Of a DNA stretch of 64,000 nucleotides, positions 4,779 through 44,637 are shown piece by piece. The stretch covers positions 1,736,001-1,800,000 of the forward strand of contig NZ_CP017718.1 in NCBI RefSeq assembly GCF_001854405.1, given 5' to 3'. The translations under genes and the position numbers were made by a program. This DNA comes from Hyphomonas sp. Mor2 (lineage in GTDB: Bacteria > Pseudomonadota > Alphaproteobacteria > Caulobacterales > Hyphomonadaceae). How positions within the stretch are numbered: the stretch's first letter is position 1; each line of letters begins with the position of its first letter. The notes beneath the pieces are model-generated. The model did not search any database. It saw nothing but the letters and a program-made list of their open reading frames with translations, and was not told where the DNA came from.

Positions 4779-6212
4779 ATGAGGAAAAGCTGGATTTTGG
4801 CCATGGCCTTTGCCGCTGTCTCCGCTTGTCAACAAGCGGATCAGGCGAATGAGATCTCGACCAACGCAATCAACGGGACGACGGCAGACCTGTCTATCGC
4901 CACCACAAAAGTATCCGTCCCCAGCGAAGCCGCGCCTCTATTGGCACAACAAGGCGATCATGCGGTCGGCGTGACCACGATCACACTCACCAATCCTGAA
5001 CAACCTGACATCACGAACTACGATTATGGCGAACAGGAAATGGGGTCTTATGACCGCGAGATTTCCGTTGATGTTTTCTATCCTGCAGAGGTGAGCGCCG
5101 CCGCGACGCCCACAACCTATATCGGCCAATTCGTCAATGCAGAGGATGACCCGGTCGCCGATCTGCCGGATACTTTTACGATCCTGGGAAACGCGTATCG
5201 GGACGCGGTAGCAAAGAGCGGACAAACCTATCCATTGGTGATCGTCTCTCATGGCCTTGGAAACACGCCGGGCGTGCTCGCCAGTCTGACAGAGAACCTG
5301 GCCAGCAAAGGCTACATCGTCGCCGCGATCAATCATGGTGACTATATTCTGGGCGAACCGAGAGAGCCGCTTCGCCTGTTTCAGCGCATTCTCTTGTTTC
5401 GCTCGCTTGACCAACAATTTGTCCTGCAACAGCTCACCGGGACCGCAGACTCGATCGACGCGGATTGGATGGCATCCATCGACCGGTCCAACGTGGCCCT
5501 TATGGGATTTTCCATGGGCGGATATGGGGTCCTCAATCACGCTGGAGCCGGTTACAATTCAAGCGCGATGACCTTCAACATGGTGGCCGGAAACGCTTTG
5601 GCACCAATGGCCGCTGGAAACGAGCAATTTGCCGGCGCGACGCCGGAAAACGTCAAGGCGATCGTCGCGATTTCCCCATGGGGCGCCCAAAGCCAGGTCG
5701 GCATGTGGTCGCACGAGGCCTTTGAAAACATCTCCGCCCCGATGCTTCTCATCGTCGGCAGTCAGGATGACATTGTCGGCTATGAAGACGGCGTTCGGGA
5801 CATCTTTGAGAATGCCACGATGACTGACCGATATATGCTCGTCTTCCAGAACGCGATGCACAATCTGGTTCAGGTGTCCGCGCCGGAGATCGCTTCGTCT
5901 GATGTCCGTATCTGGGCGACGTTTGAGGATCCGGTCTGGCAGCGACAGAAGATTCACGATGTGAACCAACACTTCATCACGGCCTTTCTCGACCTGCATC
6001 TGAAAGGGCAGGAAGATCGCCGGGCCTATCTGGATGTCCCGACGGTTGAATCGAATGATGGTGAATGGCCTCAACCCATGGGCAAGGACTTCTCCGCCAT
6101 GTATGCCGATGGAGAAAACGGCTCAGACGGATACTGGAGAGGCTTCAAGCGACGCCAGGCCATCGGTCTTGAAATGCACTATCTTCCGAAAGCAACGTCC
6201 GAAGGCGAATAG
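4779..6212 (+). CDS. Lipoprotein alpha/beta hydrolase
   Basis: This is a 477-residue alpha/beta-hydrolase of the dienelactone-hydrolase / PAF-acetylhydrolase-like group, probably a periplasmic or outer-membrane-anchored esterase. The ATG at 4779 has TTGGAGG upstream and begins a lipoprotein signal (MRKSWILAM... VSAC) with Cys17 as the lipidation site; an in-frame TTG at 4752 is less likely. The nucleophile elbow GFSMGG places Ser at about residue 245. A later VGSQDD and an AMHN segment supply plausible acid and histidine. The preceding SHGLG is the oxyanion-loop region. It is the first gene of a four-gene operon, and its TAG stop directly abuts the GST ATG. It could make the first extracytoplasmic cut of an esterified substrate. 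Confidence 0.85.
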   Translation: MRKSWILAMAFAAVSACQQADQANEISTNAINGTTADLSIATTKVSVPSEAAPLLAQQGDHAVGVTTITLTNPEQPDITNYDYGEQEMGSYDREISVDVFYPAEVSAAATPTTYIGQFVNAEDDPVADLPDTFTILGNAYRDAVAKSGQTYPLVIVSHGLGNTPGVLASLTENLASKGYIVAAINHGDYILGEPREPLRLFQRILLFRSLDQQFVLQQLTGTADSIDADWMASIDRSNVALMGFSMGGYGVLNHAGAGYNSSAMTFNMVAGNALAPMAAGNEQFAGATPENVKAIVAISPWGAQSQVGMWSHEAFENISAPMLLIVGSQDDIVGYEDGVRDIFENATMTDRYMLVFQNAMHNLVQVSAPEIASSDVRIWATFEDPVWQRQKIHDVNQHFITAFLDLHLKGQEDRRAYLDVPTVESNDGEWPQPMGKDFSAMYADGENGSDGYWRGFKRRQAIGLEMHYLPKATSEGE

Positions 6213-30943: not shown

Positions 30944-32317
30944 TTAGTCCCAGCTGCCGCCAAGTGCCAGGTTCAGAGCGACCCATTCGTCCAGCTGCGC
31001 GCGTTCAATACTGACCACATCCCCCTCATTGGACAGCACGCGTTGCTGGATGGTCAAGACGTCGAGCAGGTCGGTCTCGCCCTCTTCGTAGCGCAGGTTG
31101 ACGATACGAAGGGCATTGTTCGCCTCCGCGGCGGCTTGTTCGAGCTGCACCGCTCGATCCTTCAGCACGACATTCTGATCGAGTGAGCTTTCGACTTCCT
31201 GGAACGCGACTAGGACAGCGTCGGCATAGCTTGCAATCGCTTGCTGTTGCTCAGCGCTTGCCTGCTCCACCTGCGACTCTCTCAAGCCGCCATCGATCAG
31301 CGGCGCGACCAGACTGGTGGCGGCCTGCCAGGCCACATTGGTCGGGTTTAACAGATTGGTGAGATCCCCGGAGGACCCGCCCAGGCTCCCGGTCAGACTG
31401 ATTGACGGCATCCGCGCCGCCTTGGCCTGATCGAGGCTGTTGAACGCGGCAGCAACCCGGCGCTCGGAGGCGATAATGTCGGGGCGACGCTCCAGGATCT
31501 CCGATGGCAGACCTGACGGCGGCGGCGCCGGAACCTGCGGCAGATCCCGTCGCAATTCCAGATCCGCAGCCGGATAACGCCCCAGCAGCACTTCCAGCGA
31601 CCGCAGCGCGTCGCGCTGTGATCCTTGAGCGGCGATCAGTGAGGCTTTCGTGCGGGCCAGATCAGAGCGGGACAGGGCAACATCCTGTGACGTCGCCAAC
31701 CCGAACTCAAACTGGACGCCAACGATACGATCCGTCTCATTCAGGGCGTCGAGCGTGTTCTGGACCGTTTCGGCCTGTCGCCCGGCTTCAATGGCAAGAA
31801 AATACCCCCGCGCCACCGCTGCGGCGAGAGAATACTGGCTGTACACATAATCCGCTTCGGCCGCTTCAGCGCTGAGCACTGCGGCTTGGTTGCCCGCGCG
31901 AATGCGCCCCCATAGGTCAAGTTCCCAGCTCGCCTGGCCTGTCAGGGAATAACTGTCGCCACCGCTGTCTTCGATATTGCCGCTGCGCGTGGCACCGGAC
32001 GACAAGCTGACGGAGGGCGAAAGTCCTGCGCCCGCCTGACCAGCCAGCGCCCACGAGCGTTGAACATTCGCGGCTGCCGCTTGCAGGTTTCTATTGTTCG
32101 CCAATGCTTCTTCGACCAGCGCCGAGAGAACCGGATCATCAAGCTTGGCGACCCAGCCCGCTTCGACCGTCCCCAACCGCTCACCGGCCATAGCCCAGGC
32201 GTCCGGCGCATCCGGCAGAGTCGCCCGCGCCGCCCGGGCCGCGTCACCCGGTAATGTGATGTTTGCGCAAGCGCTCAAGGCGAGCACTGAAAGTCCGAAG
32301 AGCACGTGTTTGATCAT
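30944..32317 (-). CDS. RND efflux outer-membrane lipoprotein channel (OMF, system 2)
   Basis: This 457-residue OprM-type channel has a clear lipoprotein signal (MIKHVLFGLSVLALSAC, Cys17 after L-S-A) and two OEP repeats (RSWALAGQAGAGLSPSVSLS early, RMPSISLTGSLGG late). Its ATG overlaps the TGA of the system 2 permease by 4 bp, indicating coupled translation. The last residues (LALGGSWD) are family typical. It is the third gene of MFP-RND-OMF system 2. Confidence 0.93.
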   Translation of the reverse strand: MIKHVLFGLSVLALSACANITLPGDAARAARATLPDAPDAWAMAGERLGTVEAGWVAKLDDPVLSALVEEALANNRNLQAAAANVQRSWALAGQAGAGLSPSVSLSSGATRSGNIEDSGGDSYSLTGQASWELDLWGRIRAGNQAAVLSAEAAEADYVYSQYSLAAAVARGYFLAIEAGRQAETVQNTLDALNETDRIVGVQFEFGLATSQDVALSRSDLARTKASLIAAQGSQRDALRSLEVLLGRYPAADLELRRDLPQVPAPPPSGLPSEILERRPDIIASERRVAAAFNSLDQAKAARMPSISLTGSLGGSSGDLTNLLNPTNVAWQAATSLVAPLIDGGLRESQVEQASAEQQQAIASYADAVLVAFQEVESSLDQNVVLKDRAVQLEQAAAEANNALRIVNLRYEEGETDLLDVLTIQQRVLSNEGDVVSIERAQLDEWVALNLALGGSWD

Positions 32318-35300
32318 GCGGGGGCGAGCTCCTCTGAGTCTGGCTCAACCGCAGGCGGCGGCGCCGCGGTCTCGTCTTTGTGGATCCCAAACAGCAAAGC
32401 GTAAAGGACCGGCGTGACGAGCAGCGTAATCAGGGTCGCGAATGACAGACCAAAGGCGAGGACCACCGTCATCGATTTGAAGAAGGCGTCAAAATAGAGC
32501 GGCAGAATGCCAAGCACGGTCGTGAACGCGCCCATGGTCACCGGTCGCAGCCGGCTCGCAGCGGATTCCACCAGCGCATCAAAGCGCGGCATCCCAGAAG
32601 CGATCAGTTCGTCCGTCGAGTCGACGAGAACAAGCGAGTTCTGAATCAACAAACCGGAGAGCGATAGCAGACCAAGAATGCCCATGAACTCGAGCGGCGT
32701 CTGGGTAATCGACAGCCCGAAGACGACGCCGACAAGCGCGAGCGGGACGATCGACCAGATCACGATAGGCTGGCGGATCGCATTGAACAGCACGACCACA
32801 ACCAGGACCATGGCCAGCAAGCCGAGCGGGATCGTACTCGCCAGATTGGATTGCGCCTCGCTCGAGGAGCCGAATTCGCCATCCCATTTGAAAGTATATC
32901 CGGGCGGCAGCTCGATCGCCTCAATCTGAGGGCGCAGGCGGGAGAACAAGGCATCAGCCAATTCGCCAACCGCCGGATCGGCCTGCGCCTTGATCGATAG
33001 AACCCGATCGGTCCGCAATAGCCGTGCGTCGCGCCAGATCACCTCACCATCATCAATGACCTGCGCCAGTGGGACGGGTTGCTGCGTAGTGGGACTGAGG
33101 ATCTGAATTGAGACGAGATCCCAGGTATCGGTTCGCTCATCCTTGGGCGCGCGTGAAATGATCGGGATCAGCGTGTCGCCTTCGCGATAAACTCCGCGCT
33201 GCAGGCCGCTGAAATTCTCAGCCAGCGCATCGGCGACATCCTTTCTCGAAATCCCCACACGCTCCCCTTTGTTCTGGGAATATATGGGTTGCAGAATCGG
33301 CACCGGGCGGCGCCAGTCATCCTTGATCAAAACCGCTCTGGTGTCGGAGGCCATGATCCGCTTGGCCTGATCGGCGAGGTCCCGAAGCACGGCTGGATCG
33401 GGCCCGGAGAAGGTTGCTTCGATTTTCGAACCGCCGCCTGGGCCAAGTCTGAACTTCCACACCTTGGATTGCGCATCTGGATAGTTATCGTCTGCGAAGG
33501 CCTGGATTTGCGCAATCAGTTCATCATTGCGGCGATAGTCAGAGGTGCGCATCAAGAGCTGACCATAGGCCGGATTGTTGGAACCGACTTCATAGGTCAG
33601 CATGTATCGCAGCGTGCCGCCACCAACCGTGGTCTGTACGTGCTCAATGCCGTCTATACCGCTGACATACTCTTCAAGCGACAGCATATCGGCGCGCGTT
33701 CGCTCGATATCGGTCCCTTCGGGCAGGAAGTAATCGAGCACGATTTGCGGCGAGGTCGAGGCTGGGAAAAAGCCCGACTGCACAAAACGGAATCCCCAGA
33801 TGGCGAGCGCGAACACACCGACGGTTGCGATCAGAGACAACGTTTTCTGACTGAGCACAGCTCGGATCAGGCTCTTGTACCAGACCATGAAGCGCCCCTC
33901 GGGCTGGTCTTTGTCGGCATTCGAACCTGTCGCTTCAGGAAATGCCCAATAGCAGAAGAGCGGCGTCAGCGTGAAGGCCAATACCCAGCTCAAGCCGAGG
34001 GCGATCAGGACGACCCAGAACAGGGAATTGGTAAACTCAGCCGTATCACCGGGCGCGAAGCCAATGGGTGCAAAAGCGATGATGCCGACAAGAGTTCCCC
34101 CCAGCAGCGGTTTGAGATTCTTCCGTGTGACCTCGACGGCCACATCGATTTTCTTGCGCCCCTTTTGAATGCCGACCAGAATGCCATCGGTAATCACAAC
34201 CCCATTATCGACCAGCATGCCCAGCGAAATGACCAGTGCGCCGAGCGAGATCCGGTGCATGGGAATCCCTGCCACCCACATGATCAGCAATGTCGCCGCC
34301 ATGGTCAGCAACACGGTTGCCCCCATGACCAGACCGGATCGAAAGCCCATGAAGATGAGCAAGGTCACAAAGACGATGGCCAGCGCTGAAATGACATTCC
34401 AGGCGAACGCCACAATGGACGCATCGACCACTTTGCCCTGGTGATAATACTCGTGCAGGATCATTCCACCCGGGCGCAAGGATTCCAGCTCCGCCAGCTT
34501 GGCGTCGACCGCCTCCCCCATTTTCACGACATTCACACCGGAAAGATTCGAAATGGCGATGCCGAGAGCCGGTTCGCCGTCAAACCGCAGGTAAAGCGGA
34601 ACCGGATCGCGATAGCCGCGCGTCACATCGGCAATGTCGCCGAGCCGCGCGACCCCGCCTGTTCGCTGGTCACCAATATACAACGCCTGGATCGCTTCGA
34701 CGGATCTGATGTCTCCGGTGGGGTGGACCTCGATGCGCTCATCGCCGATCAGCACATCTCCGGCGCTGGCCACCGTGTTCTGTTGAGACAGCGTGTCATA
34801 GACCTGGTTCAGAGACACGCCGAGGGACGCCGCGCGCTCGCGAGAGATCTCGACATAGATGACCTCCTCCTGCTCGCCCACAATTCCGACCTTCGCCACG
34901 CCATCCACCAAGAGCAGATCGCGGCGCAATTCCTTGGCGTATTCATACAAGTCTGTCGGCGTGTATCCTTCGCCGGTCAGCAGATAGTAGATGCCATAGA
35001 CGTCGCCGAAATCATCATTGACCACGGGCGTGCTGGCTCCCGGCGGCAGATCGCGTTCGGCGTCCTTGATCTTATTCCGAACTTTGGTCCAGACCACCTG
35101 CAGGTCTGACTTTGTCGTTGAATAGGCATAGCGAATTTCGACGTTGATATCGGATACGCCAGCAGAGGAGACCGAGTTGACTGATTCAACCTCCGGCAAT
35201 TGCTGCAAGGCCGTTTCGAGCGGCTCGGTTACCTCATTCATCACCTCTTCAGGCGACGCACCCGGATAATTCGTGATCACTTTCGCCACCCGGATGGTGA

Positions 35301-35418
35301 ATTCCGGATCTTCAAAACGCGCCATATTCTCGAAGGCGAGCCATCCGCCCAAGAGCGCAATAATCATCGCGATGCTGCACAGCATCGGATTCCGAATGGA
35401 CCATTCTGCAACGTTCAT
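32314..35418 (-). CDS. RND efflux pump inner-membrane permease (system 2, altered proton relay)
   Basis: This 1034-residue RND transporter has the full 12-TM, two-loop layout. TM4 reads SLGMLVDNGVVITDG, keeping the first relay aspartate but replacing the second with Asn. TM10 reads SGLLIQNSLVLVDS, with Gln (codon CAG) where AcrB-type pumps have Lys. A VDN motif is common in some HAE-1 subgroups, but loss of the lysine is unusual. GAGGGGG lies before the ATG. It should pair with the adaptor at 35429 and channel at 30944. The coupling ion or mechanism may differ from AcrB. Confidence 0.93.
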   Translation of the reverse strand: MNVAEWSIRNPMLCSIAMIIALLGGWLAFENMARFEDPEFTIRVAKVITNYPGASPEEVMNEVTEPLETALQQLPEVESVNSVSSAGVSDINVEIRYAYSTTKSDLQVVWTKVRNKIKDAERDLPPGASTPVVNDDFGDVYGIYYLLTGEGYTPTDLYEYAKELRRDLLLVDGVAKVGIVGEQEEVIYVEISRERAASLGVSLNQVYDTLSQQNTVASAGDVLIGDERIEVHPTGDIRSVEAIQALYIGDQRTGGVARLGDIADVTRGYRDPVPLYLRFDGEPALGIAISNLSGVNVVKMGEAVDAKLAELESLRPGGMILHEYYHQGKVVDASIVAFAWNVISALAIVFVTLLIFMGFRSGLVMGATVLLTMAATLLIMWVAGIPMHRISLGALVISLGMLVDNGVVITDGILVGIQKGRKKIDVAVEVTRKNLKPLLGGTLVGIIAFAPIGFAPGDTAEFTNSLFWVVLIALGLSWVLAFTLTPLFCYWAFPEATGSNADKDQPEGRFMVWYKSLIRAVLSQKTLSLIATVGVFALAIWGFRFVQSGFFPASTSPQIVLDYFLPEGTDIERTRADMLSLEEYVSGIDGIEHVQTTVGGGTLRYMLTYEVGSNNPAYGQLLMRTSDYRRNDELIAQIQAFADDNYPDAQSKVWKFRLGPGGGSKIEATFSGPDPAVLRDLADQAKRIMASDTRAVLIKDDWRRPVPILQPIYSQNKGERVGISRKDVADALAENFSGLQRGVYREGDTLIPIISRAPKDERTDTWDLVSIQILSPTTQQPVPLAQVIDDGEVIWRDARLLRTDRVLSIKAQADPAVGELADALFSRLRPQIEAIELPPGYTFKWDGEFGSSSEAQSNLASTIPLGLLAMVLVVVVLFNAIRQPIVIWSIVPLALVGVVFGLSITQTPLEFMGILGLLSLSGLLIQNSLVLVDSTDELIASGMPRFDALVESAASRLRPVTMGAFTTVLGILPLYFDAFFKSMTVVLAFGLSFATLITLLVTPVLYALLFGIHKDETAAPPPAVEPDSEELAPA

Positions 35419-35428
35419 GATGGCCCCC

Positions 35429-36493
35429 TCAGCGCGGTTGCCAGGGGCGAACGGTCATCCCTTCATTGAAGAAGGTCACGCCAGCCGCGATGACAAGTTC
35501 GCCGCCCTGCAGGCCTTCGACAACCGTGACCGTCTCGGCACCTTCCGTGCTGAGCGAGACCCGCTGCTTGGAGATTTCGTAGCTGTCAGGATCCACAACC
35601 CAGACGAACGTTTCGCCACCTTCTGCAAGGATGGCCGTCAAAGGCACGGATATGCCTTGCTCAAAAATATCGGTTGCGCCGCTGAAATCGAGTTCGGTAT
35701 CTACGGTCGCCGTCATCCCCGGCAATGTGAGCAACCCCTCTGGCGGAGAGAAGGAAAAACTCACTTCATAGGTTTGTGTTTCTGGATCCGCGGTACCCGC
35801 GGCTTCGCGGAACTCCGCCTGAATCGGCGTGTTCGGGGCGCCATCGAGTCGGACATTGACGCCGACCGGGATCAGTTGCGGGATCCGCGCAATGATCGTG
35901 CTGGGCATGTTCACCACCGCTTCGACCTCCTGGGTCTGGATGGTCGCAATAGATTCCTTGGCCTGGACATTCTGAAAGCGCCGCGCCGAGACCAGCGAAA
36001 TCGAGCCATCGAATGGCGCGCGCAGAACGGTGTCGCTGAGGCTTTTTCTGGCATTATCCAGCGCCGCCGCGGCGATATCGCGCGTGGTGCGGCGGGTTTC
36101 CAGGACGCTGCGGGAAATGGCGTCCTGTTCGGCCAGCCGCTCGGCCCGTTCGAACTCAGCCACGGCATTGTTGTATTCAGCTTGTGCCTGGGCAACCTGA
36201 TTCTGATTGTTTCGGCTATCCAGCCGCGCGATCACATCACCGCGTTCGACGATTTGTCCTTCCAGGACATTCAGTTCCTGGATCTCGCCAGCGATCTGAA
36301 AGGTCAGATCAGCTGATTCAACCGCCCGAATGACAGCTGGGAAAGTCAAATTCCGCTGCATCGTGGCCTGCGTGGCGACCGTGAGTTTGGCCGGGCGTTC
36401 CTTGATCGTCTCTTCGACCTCTGGAGTGGGTCCGGAACAGGCATTCAGCGCCATCGCGCCCAACAAAGCGCCAATAAAGTAGGTTCGTTTCAT
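35429..36493 (-). CDS. RND efflux periplasmic adaptor lipoprotein (MFP, system 2)
   Basis: This 354-residue adaptor has a lipoprotein signal ending ALNAC (Cys near residue 19), a short hairpin (AQAEYNNAVAEFERAERLAE) and the lipoyl segment VLRAPFDGSISLVSARR. The ATG at 36493 is preferred over the in-frame start at 36535, since the signal sequence begins at MKRTYFIG. It is the first gene of the system 2 operon and is preceded by a palindrome at 36520-36533. It links the permease at 32314 to its outer-membrane channel. Confidence 0.92.
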   Translation of the reverse strand: MKRTYFIGALLGAMALNACSGPTPEVEETIKERPAKLTVATQATMQRNLTFPAVIRAVESADLTFQIAGEIQELNVLEGQIVERGDVIARLDSRNNQNQVAQAQAEYNNAVAEFERAERLAEQDAISRSVLETRRTTRDIAAAALDNARKSLSDTVLRAPFDGSISLVSARRFQNVQAKESIATIQTQEVEAVVNMPSTIIARIPQLIPVGVNVRLDGAPNTPIQAEFREAAGTADPETQTYEVSFSFSPPEGLLTLPGMTATVDTELDFSGATDIFEQGISVPLTAILAEGGETFVWVVDPDSYEISKQRVSLSTEGAETVTVVEGLQGGELVIAAGVTFFNEGMTVRPWQPR

Positions 36494-36519
36494 TTTCTGA
36501 TCCACACAACACACCCTTT

Positions 36520-36533
36520 GCTGACGTATCAGC
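36520..36533. promoter_or_regulatory. Palindrome upstream of RND system 2
   Basis: GCTGA-CGTA-TCAGC is a perfect 5-bp-arm inverted repeat 27 bases before the adaptor start codon, and a related TTATCAG follows it at 36536. This position suits an operator for the pump operon. The 274-bp gap (36494-36767) shows no credible gene; no pump regulator gene is adjacent. Confidence 0.4.
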
Positions 36534-36767
36534 ACTTATCAGAGGCCAAGTCACTCGGTTTCTTATCACGTACATGCTAATCTTAACGGGCGGTCGTGGC
36601 TTAATCAGAGACGATCGGAAAAAGAAGCTCACATTCGGAAGAAACCGAACCGATCCCGTTACCATTGAAAAAACGCCAGGCCTGAGTCTGCACGGTGCCC
36701 CCGGTGTATCGCAGGATACGCGCTTCGTGGAAATGCACGCGCATGCTGCAAATGCCGGTCACCTCAT

Positions 36768-37595
36768 TCAGGCAAAGGTGCGCACGCCGCTGCAGATCAC
36801 AAACTCGCCCGGGATCCGATATCCGTGAGGGGACCGAAATTGTTCGATCGAGTCCAGATACTCCGCATGGGCGGACGCGCGGGTGTCGGCATCGAACCGG
36901 TCATAGGCGAGCGCCACCGGACCACCGACAAAAGCCGCTTCCACGGCCGCTTGTTCGGTCGCGTAGGGCAGATCGGTCTGAAAACGCACCTCCTCGATAG
37001 AGGACAAGCCAGCCTGTTGCATTTCCATGGCCATGACGCTGCCTGTACCAAGGCGGAAGAACATCGGACAGACATCCGTCTCGACCCGCGCATCGACGAT
37101 CGGGAAGATATCGGCCCAGCCGCAATTCTTGCGCGCGCCCCAGACGGCAAAGACGGCACGTCCGCCGGGCTTGAGCAAACGGGTCACCTGCTTCATCGCA
37201 GCGAGCGGTTCGGGCACATACATCAAGCCGAGCGCGCAGGTGATGAGATCAAACTGGCCGTCCTCCAGCACGTCCAGGGATTCCGCATCGGCCCGAAAAG
37301 CTTCAATCTGCGTGTAGCCTCTCTGGCTTGCGCCCTGGGTCACGTGATCGATCATCTTTTGCGAGATATCCGTGGCGACGACGCGGCCCGCCGTGCCGAC
37401 GGCATCCGCCAGAGGGAACGTGACCAGCCCAGTGCCACAAGCAATATCGAGCACGTGCTCACCCAGTTTTGCTTTCGACATGGCCAGGAGCTTGTCTTGC
37501 GCCGCGCGCAGGCTGTCGCGCCAGCCGATATCATAATAGTCCACGGCCTTGTCCCAGCCATAGCGTTGAATGCGTCTTTGAAGATTGGCTTTCAT
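36768..37595 (-). CDS. SAM-dependent class I methyltransferase
   Basis: This 275-residue Rossmann-fold methyltransferase has motif I VLDIACGTGLV (about 48-58), the acidic strand-2 end VVATDIS and post-motif LLKPGGRAVFAVWG. It resembles UbiE/Methyltransf_11-type enzymes; the C-terminal substrate part is not diagnostic. AAGGATC precedes the ATG. It is the last gene of the four-gene minus-strand operon OsmC-FMO-OsmC-methyltransferase, 24 bp after the second OsmC gene. Within that operon it might methylate an oxidised or thiol substrate, but this is inference. Confidence 0.88.
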   Translation of the reverse strand: MKANLQRRIQRYGWDKAVDYYDIGWRDSLRAAQDKLLAMSKAKLGEHVLDIACGTGLVTFPLADAVGTAGRVVATDISQKMIDHVTQGASQRGYTQIEAFRADAESLDVLEDGQFDLITCALGLMYVPEPLAAMKQVTRLLKPGGRAVFAVWGARKNCGWADIFPIVDARVETDVCPMFFRLGTGSVMAMEMQQAGLSSIEEVRFQTDLPYATEQAAVEAAFVGGPVALAYDRFDADTRASAHAEYLDSIEQFRSPHGYRIPGEFVICSGVRTFA

Positions 37596-37619: not shown

Positions 37620-38144
37620 TTAGGCCGCGATGGGGGCATTGATGGTGATCGCTGTTTCGACCGCCTGCGGTTTGCAGAACACGTCCAACAAGGTGCTGTA
37701 TCGAAAGGATTTCTCGATCACGCGCTCGATCGCATCCGCCTCTGCGTCAGACTCCACCGAGATCGCGATTGAAATCGCGCCAAAGCCCGGCGTGACGTCG
37801 TCGCTGACGGCGAGGATGCCCCGCGCGTCTACATCGGTGTCGACCGCCACGGTGATCTTGTCGATCAGCACGTCTTCGCGCGATGCCCAGAGTTTGATCC
37901 CTATGGCGATGCAGCTGCTCAAGGCGGTCCGCAAGAGGGTGCTCGGGGTCGGTCCAGCATCCTGTCCGCCCATGCCCTTACCGACATCGACGGTGATCTC
38001 CTGATCCTTTTCGACCGTCCGGCAGATCGTGCCGTGTTCGACCGTGGCGATGTTGGTATAGACGCGCTGGCCGAGAGCAGGCTTCAACGAAACAGCTTGA
38101 ACAGAGCGTTCGAGCGCTGATTTGATGTGGGTTTGTGTGGTCAT
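37620..38144 (-). CDS. OsmC-family protein (second copy in operon)
   Basis: This 174-residue OsmC/Ohr-fold protein has the central helix segment TPSTLLRTALSSCIAIGIKLWA with a family-type cysteine. The second reactive cysteine is not at its usual place in the C-terminal helix (RYSTLLDVF). Classical OsmC proteins reduce organic hydroperoxides with two cysteines, so this one may act differently. The ATG at 38144, with CGGAGA upstream, is chosen over an in-frame start 105 bases earlier inside the monooxygenase gene. It lies 25 bp after that gene. Confidence 0.85.
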   Translation of the reverse strand: MTTQTHIKSALERSVQAVSLKPALGQRVYTNIATVEHGTICRTVEKDQEITVDVGKGMGGQDAGPTPSTLLRTALSSCIAIGIKLWASREDVLIDKITVAVDTDVDARGILAVSDDVTPGFGAISIAISVESDAEADAIERVIEKSFRYSTLLDVFCKPQAVETAITINAPIAA

Positions 38145-38169
38145 GATAGGTCTCCGATTGAGGGTTGAA

Positions 38170-39420
38170 TCAGGCGGCTTCTGCGAGCACACCGTTGAGA
38201 TAGGCAGAAAGGTGAATAGCGAGATCGCGGGCATCATCGCCGACGCCATCGATCAGGCTGGACTTGCGGCGACGCAGGAAGGGCAAGCCGAGGACATACA
38301 TTCCGGGCGCGTCGACGACGCCGCCTTGATGGCGAAGCTCTCCGCGCGGTGTGACGACCGGGACGTTGAGCCAGGAATAGTCCGGCTTGAACCCGGTCGC
38401 CCAGATAACCGTCTCGATACCGGCCTCTTTCAGGTCAAGCTGCAGGAGCGGATCACGCGGCACGCGCGTTTCCCGCAGGCGATAGCTCGGTTCTGTGACG
38501 CCGTCAGGCGCCACCGCCTCGATCCATTCATCTATCTGTTTCAGCAAGCGGTTCATCTTCAGATCCGCGAGGCTGCAGACATTTGGCAGCGAGCCGGAGA
38601 ACTGAACCTTGTCACCCGACAGGCCCATAACGCGTCCGGCGATCTGAACGCCGATGGATTGCAGGGAATTGAGGCTGATCGTCTCGTGCGTGGGGCTGCC
38701 GATCAGTTGCAGGGAGGGCACGTGTCTGGCGCGTCTGACATCGTCGACTTCGGCCAGCGTCATGTCCATGATGCCGGTTTGATCCATCCACCATTTGATA
38801 TCGCGGCCGCGATAGGTACGCGGCACGCGGACATGTTCGCCAGTGGCAAGCGTGACCTGTCGGCCAGAACGTTGCAGTTCACTGGCCAGCTGAACACCCG
38901 TTGCTGAGGCGCCCACGACGAGAACATTGCCCCCGGGCAGCTGGTCTGGATTGCGATAGGTGAGCGGGGTGATGGAGGTGATATCCGCGGGCAACTCCGC
39001 AGCGCAGGCCGGAACCCGGGCGATATTGCAGGCGCCGGAAGCGATGACGACGGATCGGCAGGTCCAGTCTCCGCGATTGGTTTTGACGAGATAGCCGTTT
39101 GCGATCGCGTCGACGCTGAGGACCGTGGTCTCGGTTTCAATCGGCGCCGCAATCTGCTGCGCATAACCAGACAGGAAATCTATTGTTTGCGGCATCGAGC
39201 GGAAGCCGTCAGGCTGGTCGCCTGTATAGGTGTAGCCCGGCAACCGGCTCTGCCAGTTTGGGGTCAAAAGGCGGAGCGAGTCCCAGCGCTCGGTTCTCCA
39301 GGAATTTGCCACCTGGCCGCGCTCGAGCAGGACATGCTCGATAGACCGTTGGCTGAGGCAGTGGCTCATGGCCAGGCCTGCCTGTCCTGCTCCGATGATG
39401 AGGGTAGAAATGTCACGCAT
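38170..39420 (-). CDS. FMO-like flavin-dependent monooxygenase
   Basis: This 416-residue flavoprotein of the FMO/Baeyer-Villiger/YUCCA-like group has an FAD fold at the N-terminus (LIIGAGQAGLAMS, residues 7-19). An NADPH fold lies in the middle (NVLVVGASATGVQLASEL), and the segment IWATGFKPDY is near residue 330. Such enzymes oxygenate N, S or carbonyl groups. The ATG at 39420 has GGAGTGAG upstream; a GTG 9 bases earlier is unlikely. It is the second gene of the operon, between two OsmC genes, which suggests a joint role in handling peroxides, sulfur compounds or electrophiles. Confidence 0.9.
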   Translation of the reverse strand: MRDISTLIIGAGQAGLAMSHCLSQRSIEHVLLERGQVANSWRTERWDSLRLLTPNWQSRLPGYTYTGDQPDGFRSMPQTIDFLSGYAQQIAAPIETETTVLSVDAIANGYLVKTNRGDWTCRSVVIASGACNIARVPACAAELPADITSITPLTYRNPDQLPGGNVLVVGASATGVQLASELQRSGRQVTLATGEHVRVPRTYRGRDIKWWMDQTGIMDMTLAEVDDVRRARHVPSLQLIGSPTHETISLNSLQSIGVQIAGRVMGLSGDKVQFSGSLPNVCSLADLKMNRLLKQIDEWIEAVAPDGVTEPSYRLRETRVPRDPLLQLDLKEAGIETVIWATGFKPDYSWLNVPVVTPRGELRHQGGVVDAPGMYVLGLPFLRRRKSSLIDGVGDDARDLAIHLSAYLNGVLAEAA

Positions 39421-39450
39421 GGGACTCACTCCAAGTTTGGGGAGGAAAAA

Positions 39451-40017
39451 TCAGGCCACCGTCACGAAGACGTTGGTTGGGTTGGTGATGATGTCGAAAA
39501 CGGCCGACCGCTTCTGTGATTGCGCCACCAGAGCGGCGATATCGTCATCACTGGCATCCGCATCGATTTCATAGCTGACGCGAACCGCGTTGAAGCCGTT
39601 GCGGACATTGCTGTCGACGCCGAGAATGCCATACAGGTTCATGTCGCCTTCAAGCGAGGCTTTGACAGAACGCAGCTTGATGCCGCGATTTTCAGCGACA
39701 GATGCGATACCGGCCGTCAGGCAGCCGGCCAGGCCGGACAAGACGATCTCGACAGGAGTTGGCGCGACATCGGTGGCCGCGAACACTTCCGGATGGTCGG
39801 AATCGATGGTGAACGTCTTGCTGCGTGCATGGTCTTCGCCGAGGCCGAAGAAGCCGTTCATTTCCATTCTTGTATGCGCGCCATCTTTCCATTCACTGGT
39901 CGCTTTCCAGGTGAACGCGGCGGCTTCCGGGGCGTTTTCGAGGGCCTCGCGGGCGCCAAGAAGGGCGGCGACGTTGACGCCGTTCAGTTGCTCAGGGGCG
40001 GTTTGTGTCTGTGTCAT
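39451..40017 (-). CDS. OsmC-family protein (first gene of operon)
   Basis: This 188-residue OsmC-fold protein has the central helix VEIVLSGLAGCLTAGIASVA with one cysteine, the only one in the chain. The C-terminal helix reads KRSAVFDIITNPTNV, where a second cysteine would be needed for standard two-cysteine hydroperoxide reduction. Its start is an ATG with CGGAGA-like spacing. It lies 77 bp downstream of a 33-bp triple-repeat element, so it is the leader gene of the OsmC-FMO-OsmC-methyltransferase operon probably governed by the neighbouring winged-helix regulator. Confidence 0.88.
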   Translation of the reverse strand: MTQTQTAPEQLNGVNVAALLGAREALENAPEAAAFTWKATSEWKDGAHTRMEMNGFFGLGEDHARSKTFTIDSDHPEVFAATDVAPTPVEIVLSGLAGCLTAGIASVAENRGIKLRSVKASLEGDMNLYGILGVDSNVRNGFNAVRVSYEIDADASDDDIAALVAQSQKRSAVFDIITNPTNVFVTVA

Positions 40018-40093
40018 GTGTGTCTCCGTAAGTTGAATTCAGACAGGGTGTCGGTTGCGACGAAGACAGATCTAGCCGGGCCTGAAATTTCAC

Positions 40094-40126
40094 GCTTGAA
40101 GACAGTTTGGAGAAAGTCTGAAGATT
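40094..40126 (-). promoter_or_regulatory. Triple direct-repeat operator, copy 1 (before OsmC operon)
   Basis: On the minus strand this 33-bp element has TCTTCA, TCTCCA and TCTTCA beginning at offsets 3, 14 and 25, an exact 11-bp period. The sequence matches copy 2 (41466-41498) at 29 of 33 positions. Direct repeats with an 11-bp step are the typical binding pattern of OmpR/PhoB-type winged-helix proteins, and a gene for such a protein lies between the two copies. It ends 77 bases before the OsmC start. Confidence 0.72.
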
Positions 40127-40225
40127 GTTTGGATTCACACATCCGGCGCTCTAGGCGCCGGTTTTTAAACAGTAATTTTTGAGACGGTTTTTGGCTAAAT
40201 CTCTATAATGCGCGCCAGATTTAAC

Positions 40226-41428
40226 TTATTGGCTCAGAAAAGCGTTCATCGCCGAGGAGAATTTCGCCCAGGCCGGATCGGATTCGGGCATAACATGATT
40301 GTTGCTCTCCAGGGTCATGAACCTGGCCCCCGGTATACCGGCAGCAAGCTCCTGCCCGGACGCGAGCGGCACCCGCATGTCACCGCGGCAATGCACCACC
40401 AAGGTTTGCGCTTGGACATCTTTCAGCAAGGACCGCACATCGACATTGCCAAGTGCGTCCAACAAGTTCGCCGCGTTCTCCGGCGATGTCGTCATGCGCT
40501 GAAGCTCATTAAACCAATCCTGGTTCTGAGGCGGCGCATCCGGCATGAATAATGTGGTGAACATCTGCCTGAAGGCAGGATTGTTTCGTCCCCAACCGGA
40601 GCGAATGAGCGTTCCCATCGCCTCGGTTTCTTCCAGCATCTTCGCGGAGTCTGCGAGCCGCCAGCCGCGCGCATAACCGCCGAGCAGCACAAGCTTAGTG
40701 ACGCGTTCGGGATGGCGCACGGCATACGCAACACTGACGGCGCACCCTTGGGAAATCCCGAACAATGGAAAACGATCCACACCCGTCGCGTCGATAACAG
40801 CTTCTAGATCCTCAACCTGGCGTTCGAACGAGAAGTCGCTGACATCCCAGTCAGACAATCCATTCCCACGCGCATCATAGCGTAGCAAAGTCCGCCCTTT
40901 CATCATGTCGGTGAAGACATGATTCCAAACGGGGCTCTGCCAGTCATATTCGAGATGATTGAGCCAATTGGCTGTCTTGATCAAAGGCGGCCCCTCGCCT
41001 GAGCGGGCAAATGCGATCTTCGTCCCGTCATGGCTATGACAGAAGCGAATGTCCTGAAACACGAATTCGTCTCCGCGGACCGGCTCGGTCGTCGCAGCGG
41101 GCGCATCGTCGCTTGCTGTTGAGGCCGTCACATTCGCGACGAACCGAACGCCACGCCCGTGCAAGGTCTTTATATACTTTTGCGCCTGACCATCATCGCC
41201 CAGCGCCTTGCGCGCAGACTTGATACGGCTTGATACAGCCGAGTCCGATACAAATCGGCCGTCCCAGATGGCTTCGATCAATTCGTCCTTGGAAATCACT
41301 CGGTCACGATGCTCAACCAGATGCACGAGAAGATTGAACACCTGCGGTTCGATTGAGACCAATCCTGTAGAATTGCGCAATTCGAGCGTCTCAACGCACA
41401 GGTCAAACTCGTCAAATTGGTATCGCAT
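40226..41428 (-). CDS. Winged-helix regulator fused to alpha/beta hydrolase
   Basis: This 400-residue protein has an OmpR/CadC-type winged-helix domain at residues 1-98 (SIEPQVFNLLVHLVEHRDRV, SSRIKSARKALGDDG, TLHGRGVRFVA). After an Ala/Thr-rich linker, a complete alpha/beta hydrolase occupies about 125-400. The nucleophile elbow is G-I-S-Q-G (Ser226), with candidate Asp near 350 and His378. No membrane segment is visible, so it acts in the cytoplasm. It may sense or hydrolyse a ligand and so control DNA binding. The 33-bp triple repeats on both sides of the gene are its likely targets: the OsmC operon on one side, the small peptide gene on the other. The start codon is directly next to a TATTAT element, so the mRNA may be leaderless. 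Confidence 0.9.
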   Translation of the reverse strand: MRYQFDEFDLCVETLELRNSTGLVSIEPQVFNLLVHLVEHRDRVISKDELIEAIWDGRFVSDSAVSSRIKSARKALGDDGQAQKYIKTLHGRGVRFVANVTASTASDDAPAATTEPVRGDEFVFQDIRFCHSHDGTKIAFARSGEGPPLIKTANWLNHLEYDWQSPVWNHVFTDMMKGRTLLRYDARGNGLSDWDVSDFSFERQVEDLEAVIDATGVDRFPLFGISQGCAVSVAYAVRHPERVTKLVLLGGYARGWRLADSAKMLEETEAMGTLIRSGWGRNNPAFRQMFTTLFMPDAPPQNQDWFNELQRMTTSPENAANLLDALGNVDVRSLLKDVQAQTLVVHCRGDMRVPLASGQELAAGIPGARFMTLESNNHVMPESDPAWAKFSSAMNAFLSQ

Positions 41429-41445
41429 CCCGTTATAATATCGGG
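41429..41445. promoter_or_regulatory. Inverted repeat with TATAAT-like core at the regulator start
   Basis: CCCG-N9-CGGG flanks TTATAATAT. The minus-strand TATTAT lies only 6 bases before the regulator ATG, which would place transcription initiation at or near that codon. The flanking arms could let the regulator or another protein control this promoter. Confidence 0.35.
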
Positions 41446-41465
41446 AGATTTTGATTTGTCCCGAA

Positions 41466-41498
41466 AATCTTCAGAACATCTCCAAGCTGTCTTCAAGC
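41466..41498 (+). promoter_or_regulatory. Triple direct-repeat operator, copy 2 (before small peptide gene)
   Basis: This is the plus-strand copy of the 33-bp element with TCTTCA, TCTCCA and TCTTCA at an 11-bp period; it differs from copy 1 at four positions. It ends 81 bases before the ATG of the 33-residue peptide gene, almost the same distance as copy 1 from OsmC (77). Both copies keep the same orientation relative to the downstream gene. Confidence 0.7.
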
Positions 41499-41579
41499 AT
41501 TCAGATCAAGCTTACGGCATTGTTGGTTCATCGCCGGGGGCAAGAGCCGTCGTCGAAACTCATAACCAAGGAGATGAAC

Positions 41580-41681
41580 ATGCAAACCTTTCGTACTACT
41601 TTTCAAGCGATCTATCTGATGGCTTTCGTGACGATCGCTTTTGTTGGGCCAAGCGCTTATGCGGCCATCGCGATATGCTAA
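41580..41681 (+). CDS. Small hydrophobic peptide, 33 residues
   Basis: The gene starts at an ATG preceded by a perfect AAGGAG with a 6-base gap (41568-41573). The peptide is a short basic N-terminus (MQTFRTTFQ), a hydrophobic stretch (AIYLMAFVTIAFVG) and PSAYAAIAIC. It looks like a signal peptide with possible cleavage after AYA, or a single-pass membrane peptide with a C-terminal cysteine. A strong terminator begins 9 bases after the stop, and a triple-repeat operator lies 81 bases upstream, so it has all parts of an independent transcription unit. I do not recognise a family. An in-frame ATG at 41574 is too close to the ribosome site. Confidence 0.65.
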   Translation: MQTFRTTFQAIYLMAFVTIAFVGPSAYAAIAIC

Positions 41682-41690
41682 CGACACAGA

Positions 41691-41731
41691 ATACGGGCGA
41701 TTAACCCGCAATCGCCCGTATCATCCTTTTT
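41691..41731 (+). terminator. Rho-independent terminator after the small peptide gene
   Basis: A perfect 12-bp stem (ATACGGGCGATT / AATCGCCCGTAT) with a 7-base loop is followed by CATCC and five T residues. It lies 9 bases after the peptide stop codon and is one of the strongest hairpins in the window. Confidence 0.85.
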
Positions 41732-41790: not shown

Positions 41791-43272
41791 ATGATACAGA
41801 GATTTTCCGATTTCGAGCTGGACCGGAATTGCCGCGAATTGCGGCAATCCGGCATGATGGTGCCAGTTGAACCGCAAGTCTTCGATCTGCTGCACCTGCT
41901 CATCGAACATAATGACCGCGTGGTGTCGAAAGACGAAATCATCGAACAGGTCTGGAATGGTCGGATCGTTTCAGAGTCCGCCATCTCGAGCCGGGTCAAG
42001 GATGCGCGCAAGGCGCTCGGCGACGATGGCCGACGGCAGGCCTTTATCAAGACTGTGCATGGGATCGGATTTCGCTTTGTCGGCGAGCTCGCCGCCAATG
42101 CGGAGGCCGCGGAGTCGCAGTTTCTCGAACCTGACAATCGGCCCGGCCTGGTGGTTCGCGATCAGCATCCGCAGACATCGATCATGATCCTGCCGTTTCG
42201 CAGCCTGGACACCAATCCGGACGGGCTCATTCTGTGCGATGCCATCCACGAGGACCTGACCAGTCACCTCGCCCGTATGCCGGGCTTCGAAGTCATTTCC
42301 CGCCTCGGGGCTTTGAAACAGCCATCGAGCCCGGAGAATCCCGAATTGCTGGGCCAGAATGTCGGCGTTGGCTACGTCATCGCAGGGTCGGTAAGACCCT
42401 CAGGTGACATGCTGCGGATCTCGGCGAGAATCATCGACAGCGCATCCGGATTGGTGATCGGCGCATTGACCTTTGATCGACCCCGTTCCGAACTGCTCGA
42501 TTTGCAAAACCTGTTGATTTTCGAGATCGCCAATGCCCTCGGCTCGGAAATCGATCTGGCCGAGGTGCGTCGACTCGAGCAGGACGCCGCGACCGATCCG
42601 AGCGCCTATTTCCATTTCAAGCAGTCTCATATCCTGATGGAGCGCCGCGGATGGAACCGATCCACCATGTCCCGGGTGATTGGCCACCTGGAGACCGCCC
42701 GCAAAATCGATCCGGATTTTGCGCCTGCGATCAGCATGCAAGCCCTGGTCAAGGGCCTGGTTGCGCCCTGGGGCCTGCTCGACAAATCGCCCGAAGAAGT
42801 CAAGCCCGAGGTCATGGATCTCGCCGCAGAAGGGCTGGAAAAAGACCCACATCGCTCTTCCGTTCTGGGATGGTCAGGGTGTGCGTATAGTGACATTGGC
42901 GAACCCGCGGTCGGCAAGCCGCATCTCGAGCGCGCCCTGGAGCTCGATCCCTCCAATGCCCAGGCCCTGGCGGCGCTGGCCTGGTCTCACACGCAACTTG
43001 GAGAGCCTGATCTCGGCCTGCCCCTCATCGACAAGGCGATACGGATCACACCAAACTATCCCGGCCACGCAATCTGGCTCTTCCTCAGATCCATTGTTTG
43101 CATGGCCCAGGGCGATGATGTCGGCGCCCGCGACGCCTGCGAGACATCCATTCGCCTCGACCCCAAACTGGCCCTGCCCTACACAACGCTTGCGCAGCTC
43201 GAAATGAAGGCCGGCAACCGCGCACAAGCTCGCGCGTATCAGGACACCGCGGATACGCTCATATCAGCTTGA
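41791..43272 (+). CDS. Winged-helix regulator with TolB/FlgO-like and TPR domains
   Basis: This 493-residue cytoplasmic protein has three parts. Residues 1-95 are an OmpR/CadC-type winged helix, strongly similar to the regulator at 40226 (both contain EPQVF, VVSKDE/VISKDE and SSRxKxARKALGDDG). Residues about 130-260 resemble the domain seen in CadC-like and adenylate-cyclase-like proteins (IMILPFRSLDTNPDG, VIAGSVRPSGDMLRISARIID). Residues about 290-490 are TPR-like repeats. I choose the ATG at 41791 because an in-frame ATG at 41761 lies inside a terminator hairpin and the winged-helix homology begins after 41791. A TATAAG lies 10 bases upstream, so the message may have almost no leader. Targets are unknown. 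Confidence 0.88.
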   Translation: MIQRFSDFELDRNCRELRQSGMMVPVEPQVFDLLHLLIEHNDRVVSKDEIIEQVWNGRIVSESAISSRVKDARKALGDDGRRQAFIKTVHGIGFRFVGELAANAEAAESQFLEPDNRPGLVVRDQHPQTSIMILPFRSLDTNPDGLILCDAIHEDLTSHLARMPGFEVISRLGALKQPSSPENPELLGQNVGVGYVIAGSVRPSGDMLRISARIIDSASGLVIGALTFDRPRSELLDLQNLLIFEIANALGSEIDLAEVRRLEQDAATDPSAYFHFKQSHILMERRGWNRSTMSRVIGHLETARKIDPDFAPAISMQALVKGLVAPWGLLDKSPEEVKPEVMDLAAEGLEKDPHRSSVLGWSGCAYSDIGEPAVGKPHLERALELDPSNAQALAALAWSHTQLGEPDLGLPLIDKAIRITPNYPGHAIWLFLRSIVCMAQGDDVGARDACETSIRLDPKLALPYTTLAQLEMKAGNRAQARAYQDTADTLISA

Positions 43273-43347: not shown

Positions 43348-44637
43348 ATGATTATGCGATCGTCCGTCCTTGGAATCTTGCTGCTGAGCGCTTCGACCCT
43401 GCAGGTTTCGGCGCAAACCGTCGAGGATGCGATTCAGGCCGCCCTGCGCCACAGTCCACAGATCACCATCGGTGAAGCCGATACCGATGCCGCTGCAGCC
43501 AATCAGTTCGGCGCCCTCGGTGAGTTTCTGCCCTCCGTATCCGCCACGATCAGTGCCGGTGAAGAACGTTGGCGCAGCGATGAGCTTGAGCGCCTTCGCG
43601 CCGAAGATGGCATGACTTACTCGCTGGAATTCTCGCAGCCGGTCTTTCAAGGCGGGTCTGCCTATTACGGCCTCAAAGATGCGCGCGCCTCGACCCAGGC
43701 GCAACGCTTGCTTGAACGTGAGAACCGACAAGTCGTGGCGCAAGTCGCGGCGACCGCACATGCTGCGCTGATCCTCAATCGGGAGATTGTCGGCCATCGC
43801 ACCCAGAGCCTCGACCTCTTGCTGCAACAAGTCACGATCACGGATCGTCGGCGCGAAGCAGGGGCAGAAAGTCTGATCGCGGTTTCTCAGGCGCGCTCGC
43901 GCATGGAGCAGGAACGCGCTGAACTGGTTCGCGCCGAAGCCGGTCTGGCGGTGGCTGAAGCCAATTACCTCAGACAGACCGGTGAAGTGCCGGGCGCGGT
44001 CATGGTTCCGGATACCCAGCGTATGGGCGACGAGATGATCAGCGCAGCCGATGCCATCGCACAGGCGCTGCAGACCAATCCAGGTTTACTGGCGCGGGAT
44101 GACTTCGTTTCCGCCGCGCGCCATGGCCGGAACTCTGCGCGCGGCAAACTGGGCCCGACCCTGTCGCTGGACGGGCAGTACAATGCCTATGATCTTGCCT
44201 CTTCTGCGGCCACGCCCGGTGTGCGACAGGAAGCCAATGAGTTTCAACTGGTCGCCCGTCTGCGTATCCCGATCTTCCAACAAGGTCAGAACTATTCCGG
44301 TCTGAAGTCAGCGAGTGCCCGCCTGGAACGCGAGAACGCGGCGCGCCGCGATGCGAGGCTGGCGGTCGAGGAAGCCGTAACCGCCAACTGGAACACCTTG
44401 CAATCGGCTGCGGAAGCGATCGCCGCCGCCGAGTCCGCCGTCGAGGCCAGCGAGATTGTCGTCGAAGGCCAGCAAGCCGAGTACAGCGCCGGGCGCATTG
44501 GCATTCAGGATGTCCTCGACGGACAACGCGACCTGGTCTTTGCGCGCATCACCCTGTCGCAGGCAGAATTTGACTATCGTCAGGCCCGATACGGCCTGCT
44601 TGCCCTGGTCGATCGTCTGGCGCCGCCGGAAGGCTAG
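43348..44637 (+). CDS. TolC-family outer-membrane channel, probably for type I secretion
   Basis: This 429-residue protein has a Sec signal (MIMRSSVLGILLLSASTLQVSA, cleavage before QTVEDA) and two OEP repeats with long helical hairpins. TVEDAIQAALRHSPQI at the mature N-terminus is typical of T1SS TolC proteins, and EYSAGRIGIQDVLDGQRDLV lies near the end. No lipobox is present, unlike the RND channels at 29401 and 30944. It converges with the giant adhesin gene, and the two share a CTAG at their stop codons. With the ABC and HlyD genes at 53377-58666 it completes a secretion path. Confidence 0.92.
   Translation: MIMRSSVLGILLLSASTLQVSAQTVEDAIQAALRHSPQITIGEADTDAAAANQFGALGEFLPSVSATISAGEERWRSDELERLRAEDGMTYSLEFSQPVFQGGSAYYGLKDARASTQAQRLLERENRQVVAQVAATAHAALILNREIVGHRTQSLDLLLQQVTITDRRREAGAESLIAVSQARSRMEQERAELVRAEAGLAVAEANYLRQTGEVPGAVMVPDTQRMGDEMISAADAIAQALQTNPGLLARDDFVSAARHGRNSARGKLGPTLSLDGQYNAYDLASSAATPGVRQEANEFQLVARLRIPIFQQGQNYSGLKSASARLERENAARRDARLAVEEAVTANWNTLQSAAEAIAAAESAVEASEIVVEGQQAEYSAGRIGIQDVLDGQRDLVFARITLSQAEFDYRQARYGLLALVDRLAPPEG

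Follow-up and report, generated by a model that had tools for sequence, protein, structure and literature searches.

Polar 11-bp repeat arrays flank the gene for a putative winged-helix/alpha-beta-hydrolase activator in Hyphomonas sp. Mor2

Background

Several described regulators offer points of comparison for the locus considered here. The pho box of PhoB is made of 11-bp tandem repeats near the -35 element, HilA binds hexamers separated by 5-bp gaps, and CadC is membrane-bound. In the Streptomyces regulator AfsR, the SARP domain binds two 11-bp repeats that overlap the -35 element and contacts sigma region 4; at SARP promoters the last (3') repeat lies 8 bp from the -10 element, the repeats reach into the spacer, and both the -10 and -35 elements are poor (PMC10936776). 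We analyzed a 64,000-nucleotide stretch of the Hyphomonas sp. Mor2 genome (NZ_CP017718.1, positions 1,736,001 to 1,800,000; hereafter the window), in which two elements, each composed of three TCTYCA hexamers at an 11-bp period, flank a gene encoding an OmpR-type winged helix fused to an alpha/beta hydrolase. Taking the model as a whole, as read from sequence, we consider it fairly probable that the fusion protein acts in the cytoplasm as a one-component activator of the OmpR/CadC/SARP kind, the hydrolase being its putative sensor.

The locus resembles each of these systems in part. With CadC and HilA the regulator shares an N-terminal OmpR-type winged helix, but HilA carries TPRs where the regulator has a hydrolase. 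PhoB also has an OmpR-type winged helix; as a response regulator, however, it carries a receiver domain and has its winged helix at the C-terminus, whereas here the winged helix is N-terminal, starting already at residue 24, and no receiver domain was matched in the regulator. The likeness to AfsR and other SARPs lies in tandem direct repeats at 11-bp steps, in a box overlapping the -35 region; the difference is that at this locus 22 bp separate the last repeat from the -10-like hexamer and the array extends upstream (compared with PMC10936776). In SARPs, moreover, a BTA domain follows the winged helix, whereas the regulator gave no match to PF03704 at E <= 0.001 and matched hydrolase families there instead. 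Among the precedents looked up, AfsR appears by analogy to be the nearest in structure. The known kind to which the regulator would belong is that of the N-terminal OmpR-type one-component regulators; the sequence comparison supports a variant in which a hydrolase takes the place of the sensor and the promoter geometry is unlike that of the SARPs. Regulator-like proteins are very common (7967 of 8000 scored candidates at E <= 0.001, with PF00486 in 114 of 120 among the matches listed). A literature search, which covered few subscription papers and is weak evidence of absence, returned no characterised winged-helix/alpha-beta-hydrolase regulator and no 22-bp layout.

Results and discussion

Two polar repeat elements in the window

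The elements, the regulator gene between them and the associated hexamers are as follows.

40097..40124, minus strand: site 1, three TCTYCA hexamers at an 11-bp period, directed toward the OsmC operon (pattern search); sequence TCTTCAGACTTTCTCCAAACTGTCTTCA
41468..41495, plus strand: site 2, three TCTYCA hexamers at an 11-bp period, directed toward the peptide gene (pattern search); sequence TCTTCAGAACATCTCCAAGCTGTCTTCA
40069..40074, minus strand: -10-like hexamer TAGATC, starting 22 bp past the last TCTYCA of site 1, read from the sequence
41518..41523, plus strand: -10-like hexamer CATTGT, starting 22 bp past the last TCTYCA of site 2, read from the sequence
40226..41428, minus strand: regulator, 400 amino acids, OmpR-type winged helix (residues 24-96, PF00486) and alpha/beta hydrolase (residues 177-381, PF00561)
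41435..41440, minus strand: possible -10 hexamer of the regulator, TATTAT, read from the sequence and identical in the congener G008

The initial annotation had described two triple-hexamer elements at an 11-bp period, 77 and 81 bp from the genes in whose sense they run, and a winged-helix/hydrolase gene between them. Both elements lie where it placed them and match TCTYCA-N5-TCTYCA-N5-TCTYCA with zero mismatches. From the last TCTYCA we measured 79 bp to the OsmC ATG (40017) for site 1 and 84 bp to the peptide ATG (41580) for site 2, which agrees with the earlier figures given how the elements were delimited; the orientations, minus toward the OsmC operon and plus toward the peptide gene, are as described, and PF00486 and PF00561 bear out the domain assignment. 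A repeat search recovered 40094-40133 and 41459-41498 as 40-nucleotide inverted arms, 83% complementary, and a degenerate fourth unit stands ahead of each triple (at 40125-40135 for site 1).

With up to three mismatches allowed, the window contains four matches, all of them registers of sites 1 and 2, while shuffled sequences average 0.21 and 0 of 100 shuffles reach four. Sites 1 and 2 are the sole exact matches in the whole 3,628,091-base genome; two mismatches add a single place, at the 3' end of an open reading frame (ORF), and the reversed-pattern control gave zero. Many unrelated copies across the genome had been named beforehand as a possible refutation, and they were not found: the two exact matches are both at this locus, and the comparison supports the compact local regulon that had been proposed.

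The congener G008 carries both sites at matching places on contig L122, site 1 with one mismatch and site 2 exact, each followed at the same offset by a -10-like hexamer (TAGGTC at site 1 and an identical CATTGT at site 2). When the two loci are aligned, the sequence upstream of site 1 is strongly diverged, whereas the repeats persist and so does the TAG[AG]TC hexamer; conservation also covers the leader past this hexamer and the sequence flanking site 2. OsmC, FMO, OsmC and methyltransferase follow in the same order, the peptide gene (94% identical) and the winged-helix/TPR gene are present too, and the regulators are 83% identical.

Two short elements taken alone could stem from a duplication, a case that the shuffle expectation does not exclude. 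That both are products of chance or duplication devoid of regulatory role is nevertheless very improbable, given that repeats with the same period, polarity and phase recur at other loci (see below) and that G008 keeps the elements while its sequence upstream of site 1 has diverged. Chance as the origin of the elements was rejected on the shuffles, the genome search and the period test.

Recurrence of the repeats beside relatives

The comparison covered 72 upstream regions of full-length winged-helix/hydrolase genes: those of 59 out of 80 loci, kept where the match starts near the N-terminus and upstream sequence is present, together with 11 further loci, the window and G008. For each, the best triple repeat in the 200 bp upstream was compared with 100 dinucleotide shuffles, and no motif was supplied. 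At p <= 0.01, period 11 was detected in 13 of the 72 upstreams; the counts at periods 8, 9, 10, 12, 13, 14 and 15 were 1, 2, 1, 1, 1, 0 and 1. At p <= 0.05 the figures were 23 of 72 for period 11 versus 1-3 at other periods. The 13 triples begin 54-129 bp ahead of the start codon, and the window's own site gave p = 0.03.

A matrix learned from 39 upstreams outside the Actinomycetota was then applied to 33 held-out actinomycete loci of up to 13 kb. Among the 19 mycobacterial loci, 18 have their best match 4-74 bp downstream of the regulator gene, with TCTYCA directed toward the next gene; the exception is L086, where it is 581 bp away. Matches of at least 20 bits were present in 16 of the 33 loci at period 11 and in none at periods 9, 10, 12 and 13. 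Over a total of 59 loci, matches of at least 17 bits form 31 clusters in the 29.5 kb that lie no more than 250 bp from the regulator gene, against 8 in the 598.5 kb elsewhere, a count that is partly circular in that training upstreams are included. Another matrix was trained on upstreams that it counted (33 of 72), so that the independent evidence consists of the period test, the held-out test and the further set of -10 hexamers described below. Many loci are close kin (the mycobacteria; L043, L044 and L134; L052 and L053), and the counts are therefore not of independent events.

The exact TCTYCA triple was found in 6 of 150 relatives, own genome included (reversed-pattern control, 0), and in 3 of 385 genomes of the class, again including its own (control, 1, in G395). 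The exact match in G239 (L157) adjoins a winged-helix gene and has a -10 in phase; the AT-rich one in G301 lacks such a hexamer and seems to be a chance match. On these numbers we reject a wide regulon built on the exact triple. Second strong sites away from the regulator's own start were seen at L048 (5284), L052 (4156) and L053 (4080), that of L048 pointing at an ECF-type sigma factor gene. Within the window, a further match to the matrix (5648-5680, minus strand, 14.9 bits) is weak, lies away from the regulator and is probably due to chance.

Polarity and phase to the -10 hexamer

For non-mycobacterial loci, the position of the -10-like hexamer was counted at 25 sites, hand-chosen mostly from matrix matches and usually one per locus; L044, L053, L134, L085, L058, L061, the second sites of L048 and L051, and 11 further loci of the period test were left out of this set. 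YANNNT begins 22 bp past the last TCTYCA at 11 of the 25 sites; no other offset between 2 and 49 has it at more than 2 sites. The dinucleotide YA alone occurs at offset 22 in 16 sites, with 9 lacking it, and in at most 5 elsewhere save for 10 at offset 33. Offset 33 is also frequent in the further set (7 of 15), and we read such cases, by eye, as sites whose last repeat sits one unit further on. In mycobacteria YANNNT is at offset 22 in 17 of 19 sites, usually as CATGCT or CATCCT about 6 bp before the ATG, which suggests leaderless mRNAs.

The further set was made up of four pattern hits and, for the most part, winged-helix genes whose C-terminal part is of another type. Four of its 19 loci, with scores below 17 (L020, L035, L132 and L157), were dropped before the count, and four of the 15 counted (L036, L038, L039 and L040) had been fetched through the TCTYCA pattern. 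YA stands at offset 22 in 14 of these 15 sites scoring at least 17, with a probability of 1.7e-12 under an assumed background of 0.12 and independent sites, an independence that is not fully met. Of 24 sites examined, 11 are followed on the TCTYCA strand, at a distance of 68-138 bp, by the start of a coding-like ORF, as with OsmC in L043 and L051.

At the level of sequence, then, the repeats, their 11-bp period, their polarity, their fixed phase to a -10-like hexamer and their recurrence beside relatives in two phyla are established, and the recurrence and phased hexamer support the earlier proposal that tandem 11-bp operators, polar to their targets, are linked to the winged-helix/hydrolase protein. 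If the first base of the -10 hexamer is placed at -12, the last TCTYCA spans -40 to -35, and a YA 22 bp past the last repeat is what one would expect if an activator site overlaps the -35 region. A polar array that covers this region and keeps a fixed phase to the -10 would correspond to an activator layout.

The regulator might instead be a repressor, or site 2 might serve chiefly its autoregulation: many relatives have the site upstream of the regulator itself, and site 2 also falls within the gap before the regulator's own start, its 28-mer beginning 39 bp upstream of the ATG at 41428. We regard this as quite unlikely, since the -10-like hexamer is in phase on the opposite side, toward the target, the mycobacterial site lies behind the regulator gene and not ahead of it, and site 1 is far from the regulator's start. 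The possible TATTAT -10 stands only a few bases before the regulator ATG, so that the regulator mRNA would be leaderless. A spaced TCGGGA/TCCCGA inverted repeat (41425-41475), conserved in G008, lies between site 2 and the regulator start and adjoins this possible -10; it may be a further operator.

The regulator and its hydrolase domain

The match of residues 24-96 to PF00486 scores 59.7 bits against a cut-off of 26.2 and occupies an N-terminal position. The best solved winged-helix match is CadC (5ju7), PhoB chains match too, and the CadC and HilA/EilA models match below their cut-offs. No hydrophobic run was evident when the regulator sequence was read by eye for a membrane span. Over the hydrolase domain, sequence profiles match 3-oxoadipate enol-lactonase, aryl esterases and the plant D14 strigolactone receptors, a likeness drawn from sequence that extends to the catalytic serine and histidine (Ser226 kept in 23 and His378 in 24 of 24 aligned relatives); unlike those proteins, the domain here is fused to a DNA-binding domain.

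At one locus (L056), close homologues of OsmC (63%) and FMO (58%) adjoin a hydrolase that has a SARP-like N-terminus and no PF00486 match. This single strong case suggests that the hydrolase, rather than this winged helix, is tied to OsmC-FMO function; at L057, L104, L106 and L114 the nearby OsmC relatives are remote only. A paralogue in the Hyphomonas genome itself (L034, G000:C1:943179-944018) is 49% identical over the hydrolase domain and has a SARP-like N-terminus in place of the winged helix. A winged-helix origin of this paralogue was rejected on that N-terminus and on the absence of a PF00486 match.

Proposed mechanism

In the mechanism that we propose, regulator winged helices would line up in head-to-tail order along a single face of the DNA, occupying three or perhaps four 11-bp units with one TCTYCA each. 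The last unit would abut or overlap the -35 region, with the -10 hexamer starting 22 bp beyond, and the bound array would recruit RNA polymerase to a promoter whose -35 is poor. Site 1 would turn on the OsmC-FMO-OsmC-methyltransferase operon and site 2 the gene for a 33-amino-acid peptide; site 2 might in addition tune the promoter of the regulator itself. The sensor would be the hydrolase domain, a small ester, lactone or organosulfur-type compound being bound or slowly hydrolysed and winged-helix activity changing in response. Binding, activation rather than repression, sensing by the hydrolase and the nature of its ligand are parts of this model that we infer.

A broader claim is possible, though on balance we doubt that all of its parts hold together: that the regulator represents a large undescribed class of cytoplasmic one-component activators in the Alphaproteobacteria and part of the Actinomycetota, which would share one promoter layout (three or four 11-bp units, then 22 bp, or two helical turns, to the -10) whatever the sensor, hydrolase or TPR, and in whose hydrolase branch the enzyme-like domain would serve as a hydrolytic receptor, its signal being a small ester, lactone or organosulfur compound; such a receptor would be the bacterial equivalent of D14, wired directly to DNA. 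The operator and promoter rule would allow candidate targets to be read from sequence, such as the OsmC/FMO cassettes of Alphaproteobacteria or mycobacterial operons of the alkanesulfonate type, and it makes the mechanism directly testable. If it is true that the hydrolase domain reads a ligand, a very common enzyme fold would become a recognised bacterial signal receptor.

Several observations weigh against the activator model. Among the 14 non-mycobacterial actinomycete loci, 8 have no best match near the regulator, and the other 6, with matches within 250 bp upstream, score 9.0-22.3 bits, only L113 reaching at least 17. In two of the three sets, only a minority of sites have the full YANNNT hexamer at offset 22 (11 of 25 and 3 of 15). 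The acid of the catalytic triad varies, residue 350 being Asp in 21 of 24 relatives and Asn or Glu in 3. Targets vary also, as OsmC is present in only 8 of 61 winged-helix loci. Finally, the recognition helix of the neighbouring winged-helix/TPR protein (41791-43272) is very similar to that of the regulator.

This last similarity raises the alternative that the winged-helix/TPR protein binds the sites, either by itself or in company with the hydrolase protein, the two then sharing a three-site operator. Its gene adjoins site 2 in both the window and G008, and a matrix scan found no site of its own in front of it. Winged-helix genes with other C-terminal parts (L022-L032, TPR in several) have a triple 11-bp site of the same type about 28-97 bp before the start, and the same kind of site was upstream of the gene in 11 of the 15 such loci scanned; together with the similar recognition helix, this means that each of the two proteins may use both operators. 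However, most of the winged-helix/hydrolase loci that have sites were found by the identity of the hydrolase fusion, the mycobacterial site lies directly behind the hydrolase-type regulator gene, and at L042 and L043 the OsmC site adjoins a winged-helix/hydrolase gene, no full-length relative of the TPR protein having been seen in those loci. We consider binding by the TPR protein unlikely and retain the hydrolase protein as the preferred candidate. At several of the loci L022-L032, the gene behind the site begins MPLVTID and is tautomerase-like.

Target genes and neighbours

The genes and features on either side of the two sites are listed here.

39451..40017, minus strand: OsmC-family protein 1, first gene of the target operon (PF02566)
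38170..39429, minus strand: FMO-like flavoprotein (PF13738; nearest NCBIfam TIGR04046, below cut-off)
37620..38249, minus strand: OsmC-family protein 2 (PF02566)
36768..37595, minus strand: methyltransferase (PF13649)
41580..41681, plus strand: 33-amino-acid peptide gene with AAGGAG in front, read from the sequence
41691..41721, plus strand: perfect inverted repeat resembling a terminator, downstream of the peptide gene and with a T run after it (repeat search)
41791..43272, plus strand: second N-terminal winged-helix protein, with TPRs (PF00486 and TPR families)

With ORFs in relatives called mechanically, the gene that comes first behind the site is OsmC in the window, G008, L042, L043 and L051. 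The first target is ambiguous at L071, where AzlD lies between the site and OsmC, at L113, where OsmC is 1.3 kb from the site, and at L047, where a small ORF intervenes. OsmC-FMO as a universal target was rejected on its frequency, OsmC in 8 and FMO in 6 of the 61 winged-helix loci, many of which have short flanks. In the two mycobacterial loci scanned (L068 and L072) the genes behind the site include a member of the SsuA family, above cut-off, and proteins nearest to SsuC, SsuB and the alkanesulfonate monooxygenase SsuD, all below the curated cut-offs; the first gene behind the site in these loci has no family match, and the sulfonate reading is based on these two loci.

Small first genes behind the site at L087 (3829-4083), L107 (5622-5852) and L116 (starting behind the site at 5910) share, by eye, an RPDGSIDxxYY-like motif. 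The L087 and L107 proteins have no Pfam match, and small proteins of this type are possibly a recurrent target. The 33-amino-acid peptide was rejected as a family-wide target: among the loci compared it occurs only in its own genome and G008, no genome-wide peptide search having been made. It resembles a signal peptide and little else, has an AYA-A end as well as a terminal Cys, and may be a secreted signal or a small membrane protein. Export-type genes surround the locus (30944-36535 and 43348-44637), among them an HlyD-like adaptor (35429-36535), with an adjoining ORF of 1034 amino acids, and an outer-membrane efflux protein (43348-44637).
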